Part shown: positions 13,448 to 52,550 of the stretch, one piece after another
Layout of the letters: every line of letters begins with the position of its first letter
Numbering within the stretch: the stretch's first letter is position 1
DNA from: Streptomyces sp. Je 1-332
GTDB taxonomy: Bacteria; Actinomycetota; Actinomycetes; Streptomycetales; Streptomycetaceae
DNA: 64,000 nucleotides
Direction: 5' to 3'
Assembly (NCBI RefSeq): GCF_040730185.1
Contig: NZ_CP160402.1
Span: forward strand, 7,936,001-8,000,000
Position numbers and translations under genes: made by a program
The notes under the pieces: model-generated
What the model saw: only the letters and a program-made list of their open reading frames with translations
Database searches by the model: none
What the model was told of the DNA's origin: nothing

Positions 13448-15234
13448 CGGGCCATCAGGCCTTCCGCGGGGGCCGGTCGGGTCGGTGGGGTCGGTGGGGT
13501 CGGTGGGGTCGGTGGGGCAGGCTGGCCGGCCCGGCCCGGTCGGGGTGCTTGAGGCCGAGTGAGGCTGCCTGCTTCTACGGTGATGATCCGGTCGGCGTAC
13601 GGCAGCAGACTCGTGCGGTGGGCGACCACGATCGCGGTCTTGCCGCGCATGAGGCGGACCGTGGCGCGCGTGACCATGGCCTCGCTCTCGGGGTCGAGAT
13701 GAGCCGTCGGCTCGTCCAGGAGCAGTACGGGGGCGTCCTTGAGGAAGGCACGGGCCAGGGCGATCCGCTGACGCTGGCCCGCGGAGAGCCCGGCGCCGTG
13801 CTCGCCGAGCAGGGTGTCGTAGGCCTGGGGCAGTTCCTCGATGAAGTGACCGGCGTAGGCAGCATGTGCCGCTCGGCGCACCTCCGCGTCGTCGGCCTCG
13901 GGGCGTGCCAGACGGATGTTGTCCGCGACGGTGGCTGCGAACAAGTGCGGGCGCTGCGGCACCCACGCCACCTGCGTGCGCCACGCGTCGGCGTCGAGGT
14001 CGGCGAGGTCGGTCGCGCCGAACGAGACGCGTCCCGAAGAGGGGAGCGTGAAGCCGAGGAGGAGCGCGAGGAGTGTGGACTTGCCCGCGCCGCTCGGTCC
14101 GACCAGGGCGATGTGTTCGCCGGGGCGCACGGAGAGGGACACGTCACGGAGGGCGGGGGCCGCACGGCCCGGGTACTGGACCGTGACATTCTCCAGGCAC
14201 AGGTGCCCCTCGCGGGCGTCGGACACCGGGGCGGCGGCGCCCACGGTGGACGGGCCCCGAGCCACGGAGGGGGCGGCGGAGTCGTCGTCACAGCCGTCGA
14301 GGACGGCGAAGACCCGCTCGGCCACCGCGATGCCCTCGGCGCTGTCGTGGAAGGCCGCACCCGCCGCGCGCAGCGGCAGGTAGGCCTCGGGGGCCAGGAA
14401 CAGCACGACCAAGGCCGTACGCAGGTCCAACTCGCCACCGAGCAGCCGTAGTCCGACCGGCACCGCCACCAGCGCCACGGACAGGGTCGCGACCGTCTCC
14501 AGGACGAAGGAGGACAGGAACGCCACGCGCAGTGTGCGCATGGTGGCCCGCCGGTGGGCGTCCGCCATCTCGTGCACCACACGCGCCTGTTGCTTCTCCT
14601 GCCCGAACGCGCGCAGCGTCGGCAGCCCCGCCACCACATCGAGGAAGTGGCCGCCGAGCCGGGCGAGCAACTGCCATTGCCGGGCAGTGCGCATGACGGT
14701 GTGGGCGCCGACCAGCGCACCGAACACGGGGATCAGCGGCAGCGTCACGACGATGATCAGAGCGGAGGTCCAGTCCGTCCACGCCAGCCACCCGATGACC
14801 GCCAGGGGCACCACCGCCGTGGCCGTCATCGAGGGCAAGTAGCCCACGACGTACGCGTCCAGGGCGTCGAGGCCGCGGGTGAGCAGCGTGGCCGTCTCGC
14901 CGTGGCGCCCGGCCGTGAGCCGCAGCGGGCCGGTGTGCCGCAGCCGGCCGGTGATCCTTTCGCGCAGCGCGAGTTTGGTGTCGGCGGCGGCGCGTTGCGC
15001 GAGAACTCCGCGAGCCCAGGCGAGCAGCGCGCGCAGTGCCATGACGCTGCCCAGCGCTGCCGACGGTGCGACGCGGAAAGGGCGCCCGGCGAAACCGTCC
15101 GCGAGGACCGCCGCGAGCAGGGCCGCCTGGACGATGGTGAGCCCGGCAGCCAGGAGCGCGAGGGCCGTGGAACATGTCATGTGCCGCCGCAGCACCGGGA
15201 GTTCCCGCATCAGGCGGCGCTCTACGGGCTTCAT
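13444..15234 (-). CDS. cydD: CydD, ABC exporter half-subunit for cytochrome bd assembly
   Basis: 596 residues from ATG 15234. Transmembrane domain at ~25-310, then ATPase: Walker A GPSGAGKST, Q-loop AWVPQRPHLF, signature LSAGQRQRIALARAF, Walker B PVLLLDEPTAHLD, H-loop VAHRTSLL. It lies 62 bp downstream of cydB and its TGA overlaps cydC. The C-terminal tail is low complexity (PTPPTPPTPP), encoded by a 9-bp tandem repeat. It forms a heterodimer with CydC in the membrane. Confidence 0.92.
   Translation of the reverse strand: MKPVERRLMRELPVLRRHMTCSTALALLAAGLTIVQAALLAAVLADGFAGRPFRVAPSAALGSVMALRALLAWARGVLAQRAAADTKLALRERITGRLRHTGPLRLTAGRHGETATLLTRGLDALDAYVVGYLPSMTATAVVPLAVIGWLAWTDWTSALIIVVTLPLIPVFGALVGAHTVMRTARQWQLLARLGGHFLDVVAGLPTLRAFGQEKQQARVVHEMADAHRRATMRTLRVAFLSSFVLETVATLSVALVAVPVGLRLLGGELDLRTALVVLFLAPEAYLPLRAAGAAFHDSAEGIAVAERVFAVLDGCDDDSAAPSVARGPSTVGAAAPVSDAREGHLCLENVTVQYPGRAAPALRDVSLSVRPGEHIALVGPSGAGKSTLLALLLGFTLPSSGRVSFGATDLADLDADAWRTQVAWVPQRPHLFAATVADNIRLARPEADDAEVRRAAHAAYAGHFIEELPQAYDTLLGEHGAGLSAGQRQRIALARAFLKDAPVLLLDEPTAHLDPESEAMVTRATVRLMRGKTAIVVAHRTSLLPYADRIITVEAGSLTRPQAPRPGRAGQPAPPTPPTPPTPPTRPAPAEGLMAR
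13481..13516 (-). repeat. 9-bp tandem repeat at the CydD/CydC junction
   Basis: Four perfect copies of GTCGGTGGG on the plus strand (13481, 13490, 13499, 13508). On the coding strand they encode PPT repeats at the end of CydD. As the unit is a multiple of 3, copy-number change would alter linker length without changing frame. The cydC frame stays open through this region and well upstream, so one frameshift here would fuse the two proteins. Confidence 0.85.
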
Positions 15235-24359: not shown

Positions 24360-24597
24360 GACGATTCCCAACCTCGGGACGTTTCCCGACCTCGGAAAGG
24401 CCGTCGGGACGACAAGCCTCTGCACCACCGTGCGCGCCCCGTCGCGCGGGCGCCCCCGCACCACCGGCCGATGCCGCCGTTCGAGGGAAGGGGGCGACGT
24501 TCACCTGAGTGGCCGACGAGGATGGCCGGGTGCGCGCGGTGGGGCAACGCTGAGGGAGCGGGGGCAGGGGGTACTCCATGGCAGAACGGATCCCACC

Positions 24598-24687
24598 ATG
24601 TCAGCGAAGCCGCCACTCGCAACGGCCATGTCAGCGAAGCCGCCGACCGCAACGGTCACGTCAGCGAAGCCGCCAGCCGCAACGGTC
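24598..24687 (+). repeat. Three 30-bp tandem repeats over the start of the DUF4344 gene
   Basis: Units start at 24598, 24628 and 24658, each beginning RTGTCAGCGAAGCCGCC-like (ATG, ATG, ACG) and ending GCAACGG. They duplicate the translation start and encode MSAKPP..AT ten-residue units before the signal peptide. The third copy starts with ACG instead of ATG. It looks like recent local amplification. Confidence 0.9.
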
Positions 24688-49269: not shown

Positions 49270-49614
49270 ATGAGCGATCGGATACCGGCTTCCCCCGGCG
49301 AGGACGGCAGCACGCCTGTTCCCAGGGACCCCCCGGACCAGCAGGCGACGGACGAGCCGGACGCCTGGGACCTGGACGTGGGCAAGGTCGCCGCCGAGAA
49401 CGACGACGGCGACGACAGTGGCAACGACAGCGGTGGCGACAGCAGCAGTAACAGCGGCGACGAAAGCAGCAACAGCAACAGCAACGGCGACGGCGAAAGC
49501 GGCGCCTCGACCGACGTCCCCCGTACGGACGAGGGCGGCACCGCCAGGCGCGGTGAATCCCGCGCCCTGGAAAGCCACGCGGAGAAGCCGGTACCGGACG
49601 AGCCTTCCGGGTGA
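49270..49614 (+). CDS. Acidic low-complexity protein
   Basis: 114 residues from ATG 49270, with a perfect AGGAGG 6-7 nt upstream, so translation should be strong. The middle is a run of Asp/Ser/Asn/Gly (DDGDDSGNDSGGDSSSNSGD), the ends are Pro/Glu-rich. Predicted to be fully disordered and strongly acidic, with no signal peptide. It could act as a dehydrin-like or polycation-binding protein; nothing more can be said. Confidence 0.65.
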   Translation: MSDRIPASPGEDGSTPVPRDPPDQQATDEPDAWDLDVGKVAAENDDGDDSGNDSGGDSSSNSGDESSNSNSNGDGESGASTDVPRTDEGGTARRGESRALESHAEKPVPDEPSG

Positions 49615-50032: not shown

Positions 50033-50177
50033 GCGGCCATCATGGCCCGCACGCCGGGCCGGCTTCAGGTTGCCGACCGCAATCGCGTGAGCGAGCTTGG
50101 TGAAAGCAGCAAGGGATCTCGAGGGTGTGCCCCCGTCCCAGCCCAGCCGTTCGATTCCCAGATTCTCAGGAGGAACG

Positions 50178-50441
50178 ATGACCAACCCCGAGCAGGATCC
50201 GAACCAGAACGAGGGGCCTGCGGACGGCGGTGCCGCGGGCACGCCCGGTGTCCACGACGGAGGAGCCGACGGTGGGGCCGAAGGGCCCGCGGACGGTGGC
50301 GCGGCGGGCACCCCGGGCGTTCACGACGGAGGAGCCGACGGTGGGGCCGAGGGGCCCGCGGACGGCGGTGCGGCGGGCAGGCCGGGCGTCCACGACGGAG
50401 GCGCCGACGGCGGAGCCGACGAGTCCGCAAGCGGCTCTTGA
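50178..50441 (+). CDS. Repeat peptide (BatC-like), coupled to a JmjC oxygenase
   Basis: 87 residues from ATG 50178, with AGGAGG 5-6 nt upstream. After a 12-residue leader (MTNPEQDPNQNE) come three 23-residue units, each GPADGGAAGTPGVHDGGADG plus GAE or similar (Arg for Thr in unit 3), then a short DESASGS tail. Similar small Gly/Asp/Ala-rich Streptomyces proteins are labelled BatC in memory. No signal peptide. Its TGA overlaps the TTG of the JmjC gene (TTGA), so the two are made together; the repeats, with their conserved HD and D residues, may be the enzyme substrate. Confidence 0.8.
   Translation: MTNPEQDPNQNEGPADGGAAGTPGVHDGGADGGAEGPADGGAAGTPGVHDGGADGGAEGPADGGAAGRPGVHDGGADGGADESASGS
50211..50417 (+). 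repeat. Three 69-bp in-frame tandem repeats
   Basis: Units 50211-50279, 50280-50348 and 50349-50417. Differences among units are mostly at third codon positions, and a stretch CACGACGGAGGAGCCGACGG is identical in the first two. The pattern shows selection on the peptide rather than only recent DNA duplication. Confidence 0.9.
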
Positions 50442-51643
50442 GCATCCCCCCGACCGAGCTCCAGAACGCCGACGCCGCAGCAGGCGTCGGCGTTTTGGAG
50501 ACACGGCTGACCGGCCTGAGCAAGGAGCGGTTCGCCCGCGACGTCTGGGCGCGCACGGCGCTGCTCACACGAGGAGCGAGCGACTTCTCCGACCTGTTCT
50601 CCGCCGACGCCGTGGACGAACTGACCTCGCGTCGGGGCCTGCGTACGCCCTTCCTCCGTGTCGCCAAGGACGGCTCCACACTCCCCGAGTCGTCCTTCAC
50701 CTCACCCGCCGGCGTCGGCGCCACCATCGCCGACCAGCTCGACGACACCGCCCTGTGGCGAAGCTTCGCGGACGGCGCCACGCTCGTCCTGCAAGCTCTG
50801 CAGCGCACATGGGCGCCGGTCGCGGACTTCACCGCCGGGCTGAGCACGGAGCTGGGGCATCCGGTGCAGGCCAACGCCTATGTCACGCCGCCGCAGAATC
50901 GCGGGTTCGACGACCACTACGACGTCCATGATGTCTTCGTACTGCAGATCGACGGCACCAAGCGCTGGCTCGTCCGCGAGCCCGTCCACCCCGACCCCCT
51001 GCGCGATCAGCCGTGGACGGATCGCCGCCGCGCCGTCGCCGAGGCCGCGAAGGGCGAGGCCTGCATCGACACCGTTCTCGAGCCCGGGGACGTCCTCTAC
51101 CTGCCGCGGGGCTGGCTGCACGCCGCCCAGGCGCAGGGGGAGGTCTCGATCCATCTGACGCTGGGGATCCACAGTTGGACGCGGTACGCGCTGGCCGAAC
51201 AGCTCGCCAAGGCCGCACTCGCGGAGCTGCGCGACGACCCCGAGATGCGCGGCACCCTGCCCCTGGGGGTGGACGGGCCTGACGGCGAGCTCGACATCGT
51301 GCGCGAACGCCTCGCCGCCGCGATCACCAAGGTCGATTCCGCTCCACTGTTCCACCGCACCAGACGAGGCCAGGCACGCCCCGCGCCGCTGGGGCCGCTG
51401 ACCCAGCTCAAGGCCGTCGACGGCCTCGGCCGGCACTCACGGGTACGTCTTCGCGGTGAGTTGGAAGCGCGCCTCGACGGCCCGCGTCTGTCCACGCGCG
51501 TGGGCTGGCTCGACTTCCCCGCGGCTGAACTGCCGTCGGTGGCCCGCATGCTGGACGGCGAGATTCGCACCGCCGGCGATCTCGGCATCGAACTCGTCGA
51601 GAGACTGCTGCGTGCGGGCGTACTGGTGCCCGCGGAACAGTGA
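50438..51643 (+). CDS. JmjC-type (cupin-4) Fe(II)/2-oxoglutarate oxygenase
   Basis: 401 residues from TTG 50438, overlapping the repeat-peptide stop; no other start with better signals is in frame. The iron-binding facial triad is His160 and Asp162 in DDHYDVHDVFVLQ and His228 in YLPRGWLHAAQ, in a cupin fold similar to ribosomal oxygenases (YcfD/RoxA, which hydroxylate Arg of L16). A winged-helix-like C-terminus (~320-400, DFPAAELPSVARMLDGEIRT) is as in those enzymes. The coupled repeat peptide is a candidate substrate; a ribosomal target is the alternative. Confidence 0.87.
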   Translation: MSIPPTELQNADAAAGVGVLETRLTGLSKERFARDVWARTALLTRGASDFSDLFSADAVDELTSRRGLRTPFLRVAKDGSTLPESSFTSPAGVGATIADQLDDTALWRSFADGATLVLQALQRTWAPVADFTAGLSTELGHPVQANAYVTPPQNRGFDDHYDVHDVFVLQIDGTKRWLVREPVHPDPLRDQPWTDRRRAVAEAAKGEACIDTVLEPGDVLYLPRGWLHAAQAQGEVSIHLTLGIHSWTRYALAEQLAKAALAELRDDPEMRGTLPLGVDGPDGELDIVRERLAAAITKVDSAPLFHRTRRGQARPAPLGPLTQLKAVDGLGRHSRVRLRGELEARLDGPRLSTRVGWLDFPAAELPSVARMLDGEIRTAGDLGIELVERLLRAGVLVPAEQ

Positions 51644-51650
51644 CACAGCC

Positions 51651-52550
51651 ATGGTGATCGCGGCAGACCGCTTCTTCTGCGCCGAGGCCGCGCGGACCCG
51701 CGGCGACCCACTGGCGGGCACAGCACCGCACGGTTCCATCTGGGTACTCATCGAGTACGAAGGCGGCTGGCCGCCCAACGGCTTCGACGGACTCCGTCTC
51801 GAACCCCTCACCAAAGGGCTCGTGTTCGCCGCCGCCCAGGCGGTGCGGGCACGCATCCTCCTGGTCAGGCGGCACGGACGCCGCACCCCCGAGAATTCCA
51901 GGCGCTGGGCCGTGCTGCGCCAGGACAGCTCCGGCGCCTGCCGCCAGCAGTGGGGCACATGGAGCCGTGATCAGGACCTGGCGGGGATCGCCGACGCCCT
52001 CAGCGCCCCCGGAGAGCTCGGGCTTCCGCCCGTCGTCCTCGTCTGCACCCACGGTCAGCACGACACCTGCTGCGCCGTGCGCGGCCGGCCCGTGGGACGT
52101 GCCCTCAGCGAGCGCTGGCCCGACCTGGTGTGGGAATGCACCCACATCGGCGGTGACCGGTTCGCGGCCAACGTCGTCGTCGCGCCCGACGGCGTCTACT
52201 ACGGCGGACTCGACGCCCCGTCATCCGTCACGGCGGTGGAGGAACACCTGGCGGGCCGGATTCACGGGGCACATCTGCGCGGTTACACGGATCTCTTCCC
52301 GCCGCAGCAGGCCGCTGTCGCGGCCGTTCTCAGACGCTTCGGCCCGGCAGGCCGGCACGACTACGCGGTCGTCGAGACGTCCCGCGAGGACAACCACTGG
52401 CGCATCCGCCTCACGGGCCGCCCGCCCCACCCGACGACGCTCGACGTCGAGGTGCACTCCTACCGCACCCCGCCGTGTCAGCTGACCTGCCGCGGACTGT
52501 CCATGAGCTCCGCGGCCGTCTACGAGGTCACCTCCATCGGCGTCGGCTGA
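51651..52550 (+). CDS. Sucrase/ferredoxin-like family protein
   Basis: 299 residues, start ATG 51651, 7 bp after the JmjC stop, so in the same operon. The thioredoxin-like [2Fe-2S]-type signature is CTHGQHDTCCAVRGRPVG, with HIGGDRFAANVVV following, as in the Sucrase/ferredoxin-like (Pfam 06999) family. A second cysteine pair sits at PPCQLTCRG. Such proteins may bind a [2Fe-2S] cluster; a role as electron donor or redox partner for the oxygenase is possible but unproven. Confidence 0.85.
   Translation: MVIAADRFFCAEAARTRGDPLAGTAPHGSIWVLIEYEGGWPPNGFDGLRLEPLTKGLVFAAAQAVRARILLVRRHGRRTPENSRRWAVLRQDSSGACRQQWGTWSRDQDLAGIADALSAPGELGLPPVVLVCTHGQHDTCCAVRGRPVGRALSERWPDLVWECTHIGGDRFAANVVVAPDGVYYGGLDAPSSVTAVEEHLAGRIHGAHLRGYTDLFPPQQAAVAAVLRRFGPAGRHDYAVVETSREDNHWRIRLTGRPPHPTTLDVEVHSYRTPPCQLTCRGLSMSSAAVYEVTSIGVG

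Follow-up and report, generated by a model that had tools for sequence, protein, structure and literature searches.

A candidate RiPP-like cassette of actinobacteria in which a JmjC oxygenase probably hydroxylates aspartates of a neighbouring repeat peptide

In Streptomyces sp. Je 1-332, the gene of a small acidic repeat peptide runs into the start codon of a JmjC oxygenase gene, and this arrangement raises the question of whether the peptide is the substrate of the enzyme and, if so, which of its residues is modified. The locus was analysed within a window of 64,000 nucleotides (the whole stretch of DNA under study) and in related genomes. The reading that we favour, to which we assign a probability of about 0.6, is that of a RiPP-like cassette: many aspartates of the peptide would be hydroxylated by the neighbouring JmjC enzyme, with a ferredoxin-like protein as helper.

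The peptide is encoded on the forward strand at 50178..50441 behind an AGGAGG ribosome-binding site (50168..50173, +), a motif found ahead of the ATG in every one of the 8 genus loci that were compared. It has 87 residues, a net charge of -15 and three repeat units of 23 residues (50211..50279, 50280..50348 and 50349..50417, all +) with the sequence EGPADGGAAG(T/R)PGVHDGGADGGA. Tandem Repeats Finder reported the units as a 69-bp array of 3.0 copies (50210-50419), whose score of 329 is the highest of the 13 rows in the window; other arrays of the window lie at 13469-13517 (9 bp x 5.4) and 24596-24685 (30 bp x 3.0). The peptide stop codon TGA (50439-50441) and the JmjC start codon TTG (50438) overlap in the sequence TTGA (50438..50441, +). 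Open reading frames, overlap and array thus bear out the earlier note, made from the sequence of the window, which had described an 87-residue peptide of three repeats overlapping the TTG of the JmjC gene. The same note had held that the repeats differ mainly by synonymous changes and are under selection; summed over the three comparisons, we counted 23.5 synonymous and 2.5 nonsynonymous differences (pN/pS 0.042), which indicates that the amino-acid sequence of the peptide is held by purifying selection. Across 63 related peptides (237 units, 331 pairs) the ratio was 0.047, a value biased low because the units were chosen by a pattern that fixes many residues. The number of DxGA units ranges from 5 to 30 among the peptides of 78 near relatives. 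The peptide had no match in Pfam or NCBIfam at E values up to 1, and the name "BatC-like" first given to it proved to be merely a label that some databases put on some homologues.

The second gene (50438..51643, +) encodes a JmjC_2 Fe(II)/2-oxoglutarate oxygenase of 401 residues that matches PF08007 with an E value of 4.5e-28 and 97.8 bits (curated cut-off 22). Its HxD...H triad, H160/D162/H228, is intact, as had been noted, and invariant in alignments of 8 and of 25 rows. The closest solved chains by sequence are NO66 and next MINA, YxbC and YcfD. An AlphaFold2 model of the protein (mean pLDDT 80.8, pTM 0.76) retrieved NO66, YcfD and MINA in Foldseek with E values down to 2.1e-22 and a poor rigid fit (TM <0.5, rmsd ~21 Å). 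From the predicted secondary structure, the C-terminal part, approximately residues 320-398 (51395..51631, +), would form a winged-helix or RRE-like domain with strands at 335-338, 344-346, 350-353 and 356-359 and helices at 362-372, 379-382 and 384-392. A winged helix is also present in ribosomal oxygenases. Apart from the short strand 344-346, the predicted order fits that of the RiPP recognition element as given in PMC12710340, where PF08007 proteins with RRE-like folds are reported to have bacterial homologues in RiPP-like contexts. Four arginines are retained by 50 to 51 of the 52 cassette enzymes, namely Arg69, Arg123 and, in the C-terminal domain, the near-invariant Arg339 and Arg389; a basic residue occupies these positions in 22%, 43%, 4% and 4%, respectively, of 23 paralogues. 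It is plausible from this conservation that the four arginines grip the acidic peptide.

The surroundings of the enzyme were then compared among near relatives. An enzyme with at least 71% identity is present in 8 of 61 genus genomes (own genome included), and in all 8 the repeat peptide lies directly upstream, with its AGGAGG and with the TTGA overlap. When named genomes were scanned with the 8-row alignment, 163 relatives emerged, the best 80 of which are 68-82% identical and belong to Streptomyces and kin, Arthrobacter, Pseudarthrobacter, Paenarthrobacter, Kocuria, Brachybacterium and Rhodococcus; because half of the 8 genus loci recur among the named loci as identical records (G056=L076, G059=L061, G041=L082, G002=L105), the two sets were not summed. 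Among these best 80, the peptide lies directly upstream in 78, and the remaining two loci (L066 and L108) end at a contig edge with just 93 and 38 nt of upstream DNA. A Suc_Fer-like gene follows downstream on the same strand in 80/80, with 52-77% identity, and begins 0-42 nt past the JmjC match in the 64 loci with a printed offset. In 53 of the 78 relatives, the peptide stop likewise overlaps the JmjC start in an NTGA. Arthrobacter enzymes are about as close to that of the window as most Streptomyces enzymes and the tested neighbours of the cassette in the window are not shared, which hints at horizontal spread of the cassette.

A larger gene cluster was considered and rejected, as the neighbours in the window are rare near the 80 named loci (methyltransferase 1, AIM24 0, RNase J 1); a crude clustering of ORFs, which performs poorly in GC-rich DNA, left no family with more than 8 loci after exclusion of the frames that overlap the cassette. 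A plasmid-borne cassette was likewise rejected, since the 17 plasmid records that matched were all below 60% identity. A scan for promoters and terminators found nothing. Just 5' of the cassette, the window has a small Asp/Ser-rich ORF (49270-49614, +) that is present near none of the 80 named loci. The possibility that the peptide is a repeat protein independent of the enzyme was also addressed. The pattern DGGADGGA(D/E) occurs in 19 of the 61 genus genomes, namely every one of the 8 that have the enzyme plus 11 of the 53 that do not; the 11 enzyme-free matches lie in open frames of 155-961 codons, some of them encoding secreted proteins with LAETGA-like ends, and none of those read (one place per genome, frames to 400 residues, second places in G031, G035 and G051 left out) resembles the peptide. 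Two of them, L121 and L126 (genomes G019 and G030), look like secreted proteins and combine long (DGGA)n stretches with LAETGA-like C-termini, and neither genome has a cassette-type JmjC gene.

Linkage was next surveyed at the depth of the phylum with the 25-row alignment. Matches were found in 58 of 396 genomes and 61 loci were tabulated, many of whose rows match themselves at ~100%, being members of the comparison set; start codons of distant genes were picked by script rules. A cut set after viewing the table separates 53 clade loci (at least 206 bits) from 8 weaker ones (at most 190 bits). When a peptide was defined by at least 20% Asp in its last two thirds or by two DGGADG motifs, an acidic Asp-rich peptide preceded 48 of the 50 testable clade loci, a Suc_Fer-like gene followed 44 of 52 testable ones, and both were present in 42 of 49, while the 8 weakest-matching loci had neither (0 and 0). 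As a control, the same definition was applied to what precedes 541 other ORFs (250 aa or longer) and fitted in 1 case; these ORFs came from the window and from named loci of the Streptomyces/Micrococcaceae type, not from deep lineages. A trait of RiPP systems, a short precursor gene conserved beside the modifying enzyme, is thus present, and the genes that the earlier note had expected to be linked in relatives are so both near the window and across the phylum. The two exceptions are L180 (G197), which has an acidic ORF of another kind, and L181 (G337), whose repeats have 14% Asp. The Suc_Fer-like gene is missing from 8 of the 52 testable loci (L165, L166, L180, L181, L184, L205, L207 and L226; five were checked in 12-14 kb) and is therefore not indispensable.

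The core of the peptide changes over this distance, from EGPADGG..HDGGADG(G/S/T)A in the class of the window to DGDATD, DADASDADAAD or TDTDTTDS in deeper lineages, and enzyme and peptide remain paired while it shifts from DGGA to other Asp repeats. A quick tree keeps each of the two sets together, the 19 DGGA rows and the 33 Asp-rich rows each falling on one side of one branch (99% SH-aLRT); a further 26 rows, of neither group, were not counted, and three of them (L138, L181, L201) fall inside. As the trio of peptide, JmjC and Suc_Fer-like genes recurs in many lineages of one phylum, the enzyme very probably modifies the peptide, and of all parts of our reading this enzyme-substrate relation is the one that we hold with most confidence.

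Some loci depart from this picture. In G197 (L138/L180), the JmjC enzyme falls inside the DGGA clade, the peptide is swapped for the different acidic ORF and no Suc_Fer-like gene is found in 14 kb. In G171 (L205), the enzyme is an outlier and the upstream peptide consists of two copies of PTEDDENLDAPGEHSQDTGDE behind ITDNDITS. The genome of the window itself contains a second JmjC_2 gene (L028, G000:C1:4341446-4342495) and a second Suc_Fer-like gene (L157, G000:C1:6197530-6198129), which lie apart from each other; L028 was left out of the 61-locus table, and its surroundings gave no Asp-rich peptide and no Suc_Fer-like match. Further Streptomyces JmjC paralogues outside the cassette clade (L012, L014, L015, L017, L018, L019, L021, L022, L027, L030 and L031) adjoin other short peptides, with ends such as RSDGND, KSDMNDT or KSD(S/G)ND, and in L012 there are two such peptides in tandem, in which DPQDI/DPSDI and DDNDS stretches occur. 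JmjC enzymes adjoining small peptides may thus be a wider theme.

The third gene (51651..52550, +), 7 nt past the JmjC stop, encodes a Suc_Fer-like protein of 299 aa that matches PF06999 (E 6.1e-16, 59.5 bits, curated cut-off 34.9). It had at first been described as an adjacent sucrase/ferredoxin-like protein; the family assignment and the proximity stand, and the counts given above show that it travels along as part of the unit and is not a mere neighbour. In an alignment of 46 rows, made of 45 cassette rows (the window twice) and the second copy of the genome, Cys10, Cys132, Cys140, Cys141, His165 and Cys280 are kept in all 46. In Apd1-type thioredoxin-like ferredoxins, the 2Cys2His cluster site has the motif HxGGH. 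In the cassette protein the corresponding motif is HIGGD: at position 169, the second His site, 44 of the 45 cassette rows have Asp and 1 has Cys, and the second copy has His there, reading HLGGH in place of HIGGD. A 2Cys2His cluster site is reported for Apd1 (PMC11126956). By sequence, no solved homologue of the Suc_Fer-like protein was convincing.

A leader-like acidic motif, typically L(S/T)DxD(I/M)xT, precedes the core in 44 of the 48 phylum peptides, as found with a loose pattern ending in Ile, Met or Val and applied without background control (for example LTDEDIET). In L185 and L206 the pattern picked a neighbouring stretch, and LSDDDIQT and LADDDMST lie further along. The 4 peptides without the motif are all of the DGGA type, that of the window included, and the same loose pattern found it in none of the 78 near peptides. 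Near the 80 named loci, the crude clustering of ORFs revealed no recurrent protease or transporter gene. Since the type of the window has no leader-like motif and no such gene recurs, processing and export of the classical RiPP kind are unsupported.

To identify the residue that is modified, the composition of the peptides was compared. Asp, Gly and Ala are present in the repeat body of all 78 near peptides, Pro in 76, His in 74 and Thr in 58. In the last two thirds of the phylum peptides, Ala is found in 48/48, Gly in 47/48 and Thr in 47/48, whereas His is found in 20/48, Pro in 23/48 and Arg in 13/48; the presence of Asp in 48/48 is partly built in, as the definition of the peptide itself demands Asp. 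His, Pro and Arg are thus lost while enzyme and peptide stay paired, which favours Asp as the target, and His, Pro or Arg as a general target is rejected because each is absent from many peptides whose enzymes are intact. Asp is preferred over Ala, Gly and Thr on grounds of chemistry and not of counts. Asp would then be the sole plausible target common to all peptides: of the three residues that the earlier note had proposed, Asp is retained and His (absent from the repeat body of 4 of 78 near peptides) and Pro (absent from that of 2) are not. We consider hydroxylation of Asp in the peptide probable from these comparisons; the fact that the solved relatives closest to the enzyme are His and Arg hydroxylases counts against it.

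The enzyme might act on the same aspartates in another way, by oxidative cross-linking or cyclisation or with the hydroxy-Asp being converted further. A 2025 JACS study reportedly describes 2-oxoglutarate enzymes that macrocyclise RiPPs, and an Asp hydroxylase acting with a second oxygenase is reported to yield aminomalonate (PMC13097080). We regard this alternative as unlikely: as possible partners for a cross-link, Cys, Tyr and Trp occur in none of the 78 near peptides and Lys in the repeat body of just 7, the cassette has a single oxygenase, and its closest solved relatives are hydroxylases. That the target is instead the His (or Pro) of the PGVHDGG motif, in the manner of the histidyl hydroxylases NO66 and MINA, which are the closest solved structures, appears quite improbable. 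The free position before DGG is His in 217 of 237 units, but it is Gln in 16, Arg in 2, Ser in 1 and Glu in 1; the repeat bodies of L053, L060, L069 and L110 are free of His even though their enzymes are 68-82% identical to that of the window, and most deep relatives have no His either.

It is also very unlikely that the enzyme is a ribosomal oxygenase of the L16/L27 type, with the peptide serving in unmodified form as a regulator, decoy or translational starter in its operon. The enzyme shares fold and sequence family with YcfD and NO66, and homologues are labelled in databases as "ribosomal protein L16 Arg81 hydroxylase" or NO66, but such labels are homology transfers; actinobacterial JmjC_2 proteins owe their names of ribosomal hydroxylase or cupin to homology. 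Moreover, a ribosomal housekeeping enzyme would not be expected to occur as patchily as this gene, which is present in 8/61 genus genomes, and despite its change in sequence the acidic peptide is retained at the depth of the phylum; the linkage of JmjC and peptide genes argues for a non-ribosomal substrate. Least probable of all is an unmodified acidic metal-binding or hydration peptide with both enzymes handling iron in parallel, which would agree with the net charge of -10 to -39 in 77 near peptides and with the iron-using families of both partner proteins but leaves unexplained the constant partnership with one oxygenase clade and the leader-like motif.

Hydroxylation of the repeat aspartates thus being the preferred reading, the cassette may work as follows. 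The first gene would provide a small acidic repeat peptide as the dedicated substrate of the JmjC oxygenase encoded directly after it, the overlapping TTGA coupling the two genes. The enzyme would use Fe(II), O2 and 2-oxoglutarate to hydroxylate many of the repeat aspartates, most likely at the beta carbon, in DGGA in the type of the window and in DGDATD or DADASD in deep relatives. Its C-terminal winged-helix domain with the conserved arginines would grip the peptide via the leader-like motif in most lineages and, in the type of the window, which has no such motif, via the repeats themselves. The Suc_Fer-like protein could be a ferredoxin-like helper that transfers electrons or handles iron. 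The outcome would be a poly-hydroxy-Asp peptide of polyanionic character, for which metal binding is the most plausible use, a suggestion that we make tentatively. A further, speculative view takes the family as a phylum-wide and hitherto unrecognised class of ribosomal poly-beta-hydroxyaspartate, an encoded and tandem-expandable Asp polymer that is hydroxylated at many sites by a JmjC enzyme and has its own [2Fe-2S]-type protein. Such a polymer would store, scavenge or buffer iron or calcium, and the number of repeats would set its capacity; in this extended form we consider the proposal doubtful.

The analysis ties a large clade of actinobacterial JmjC_2 proteins to a concrete candidate substrate. 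Were the peptide to bear hydroxy-Asp at many positions, it would represent a new product of RiPP type in which a single enzyme hydroxylates Asp at multiple sites; it would open a route to encoded metal-binding polymers and give a first role to a conserved Suc_Fer-like subfamily.

Several components of this proposal have been published: BipG and PbsQ are JmjC/cupin-like enzymes that act on RiPPs, SmaO and PesH hydroxylate Asp in RiPPs, and FIH too can hydroxylate Asp. A cassette of Asp-repeat peptide, JmjC and Suc_Fer-like genes was not described in the titles and abstract openings of the literature searched, most subscription papers lying outside the search. Asp beta-hydroxylation in ribosomal peptides is reported for SmaO (graspetides) and the MNIO PesH; PesH differs in belonging to another enzyme family and in modifying one Asp, and neither enzyme is described in those reports as acting on a tandem Asp repeat. 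CanE and CinX are further RiPP Asp hydroxylases. Hydroxylation of RiPP precursors by JmjC/cupin-like enzymes is reported in PMC12257519 and PMC12707348. As in our cassette, BipG/BpmG of biphenomycin and PbsQ are 2-oxoglutarate enzymes coded with a short precursor peptide of which they hydroxylate a residue; their target is reported to be an ornithine in a short aromatic core within a multi-enzyme cluster, whereas here one oxygenase faces many Asp repeats. FIH, an enzyme of the JmjC fold, hydroxylates Asp in ankyrin R (PMC4543633) and so resembles the cassette enzyme in fold and in Asp hydroxylation of repeat proteins, but it is eukaryotic, has many substrates and no dedicated gene partner. Bufferins are likewise specified by a small conserved gene set of precursor, iron oxygenase and partner and chelate metal (PMC12452194); as they are described there as Cys-based, with Sec signal peptides and MNIO enzymes, the analogy is functional only. 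The ribosomal oxygenases NO66/RIOX1, MINA53/RIOX2 and YcfD are closest to the cassette enzyme, being the top matches by sequence and fold and sharing PF08007, the HxD...H triad and the C-terminal winged-helix-like domain, and the question arises of whether the reading of peptides is a role common to their winged helix and to the RRE of RiPP enzymes. NO66, MINA53 and YcfD are reported to modify His or Arg of ribosomal proteins (PMC4543633, PMC9994133); the genes of the cassette clade differ in adjoining those of an acidic repeat peptide and of a Suc_Fer-like protein.
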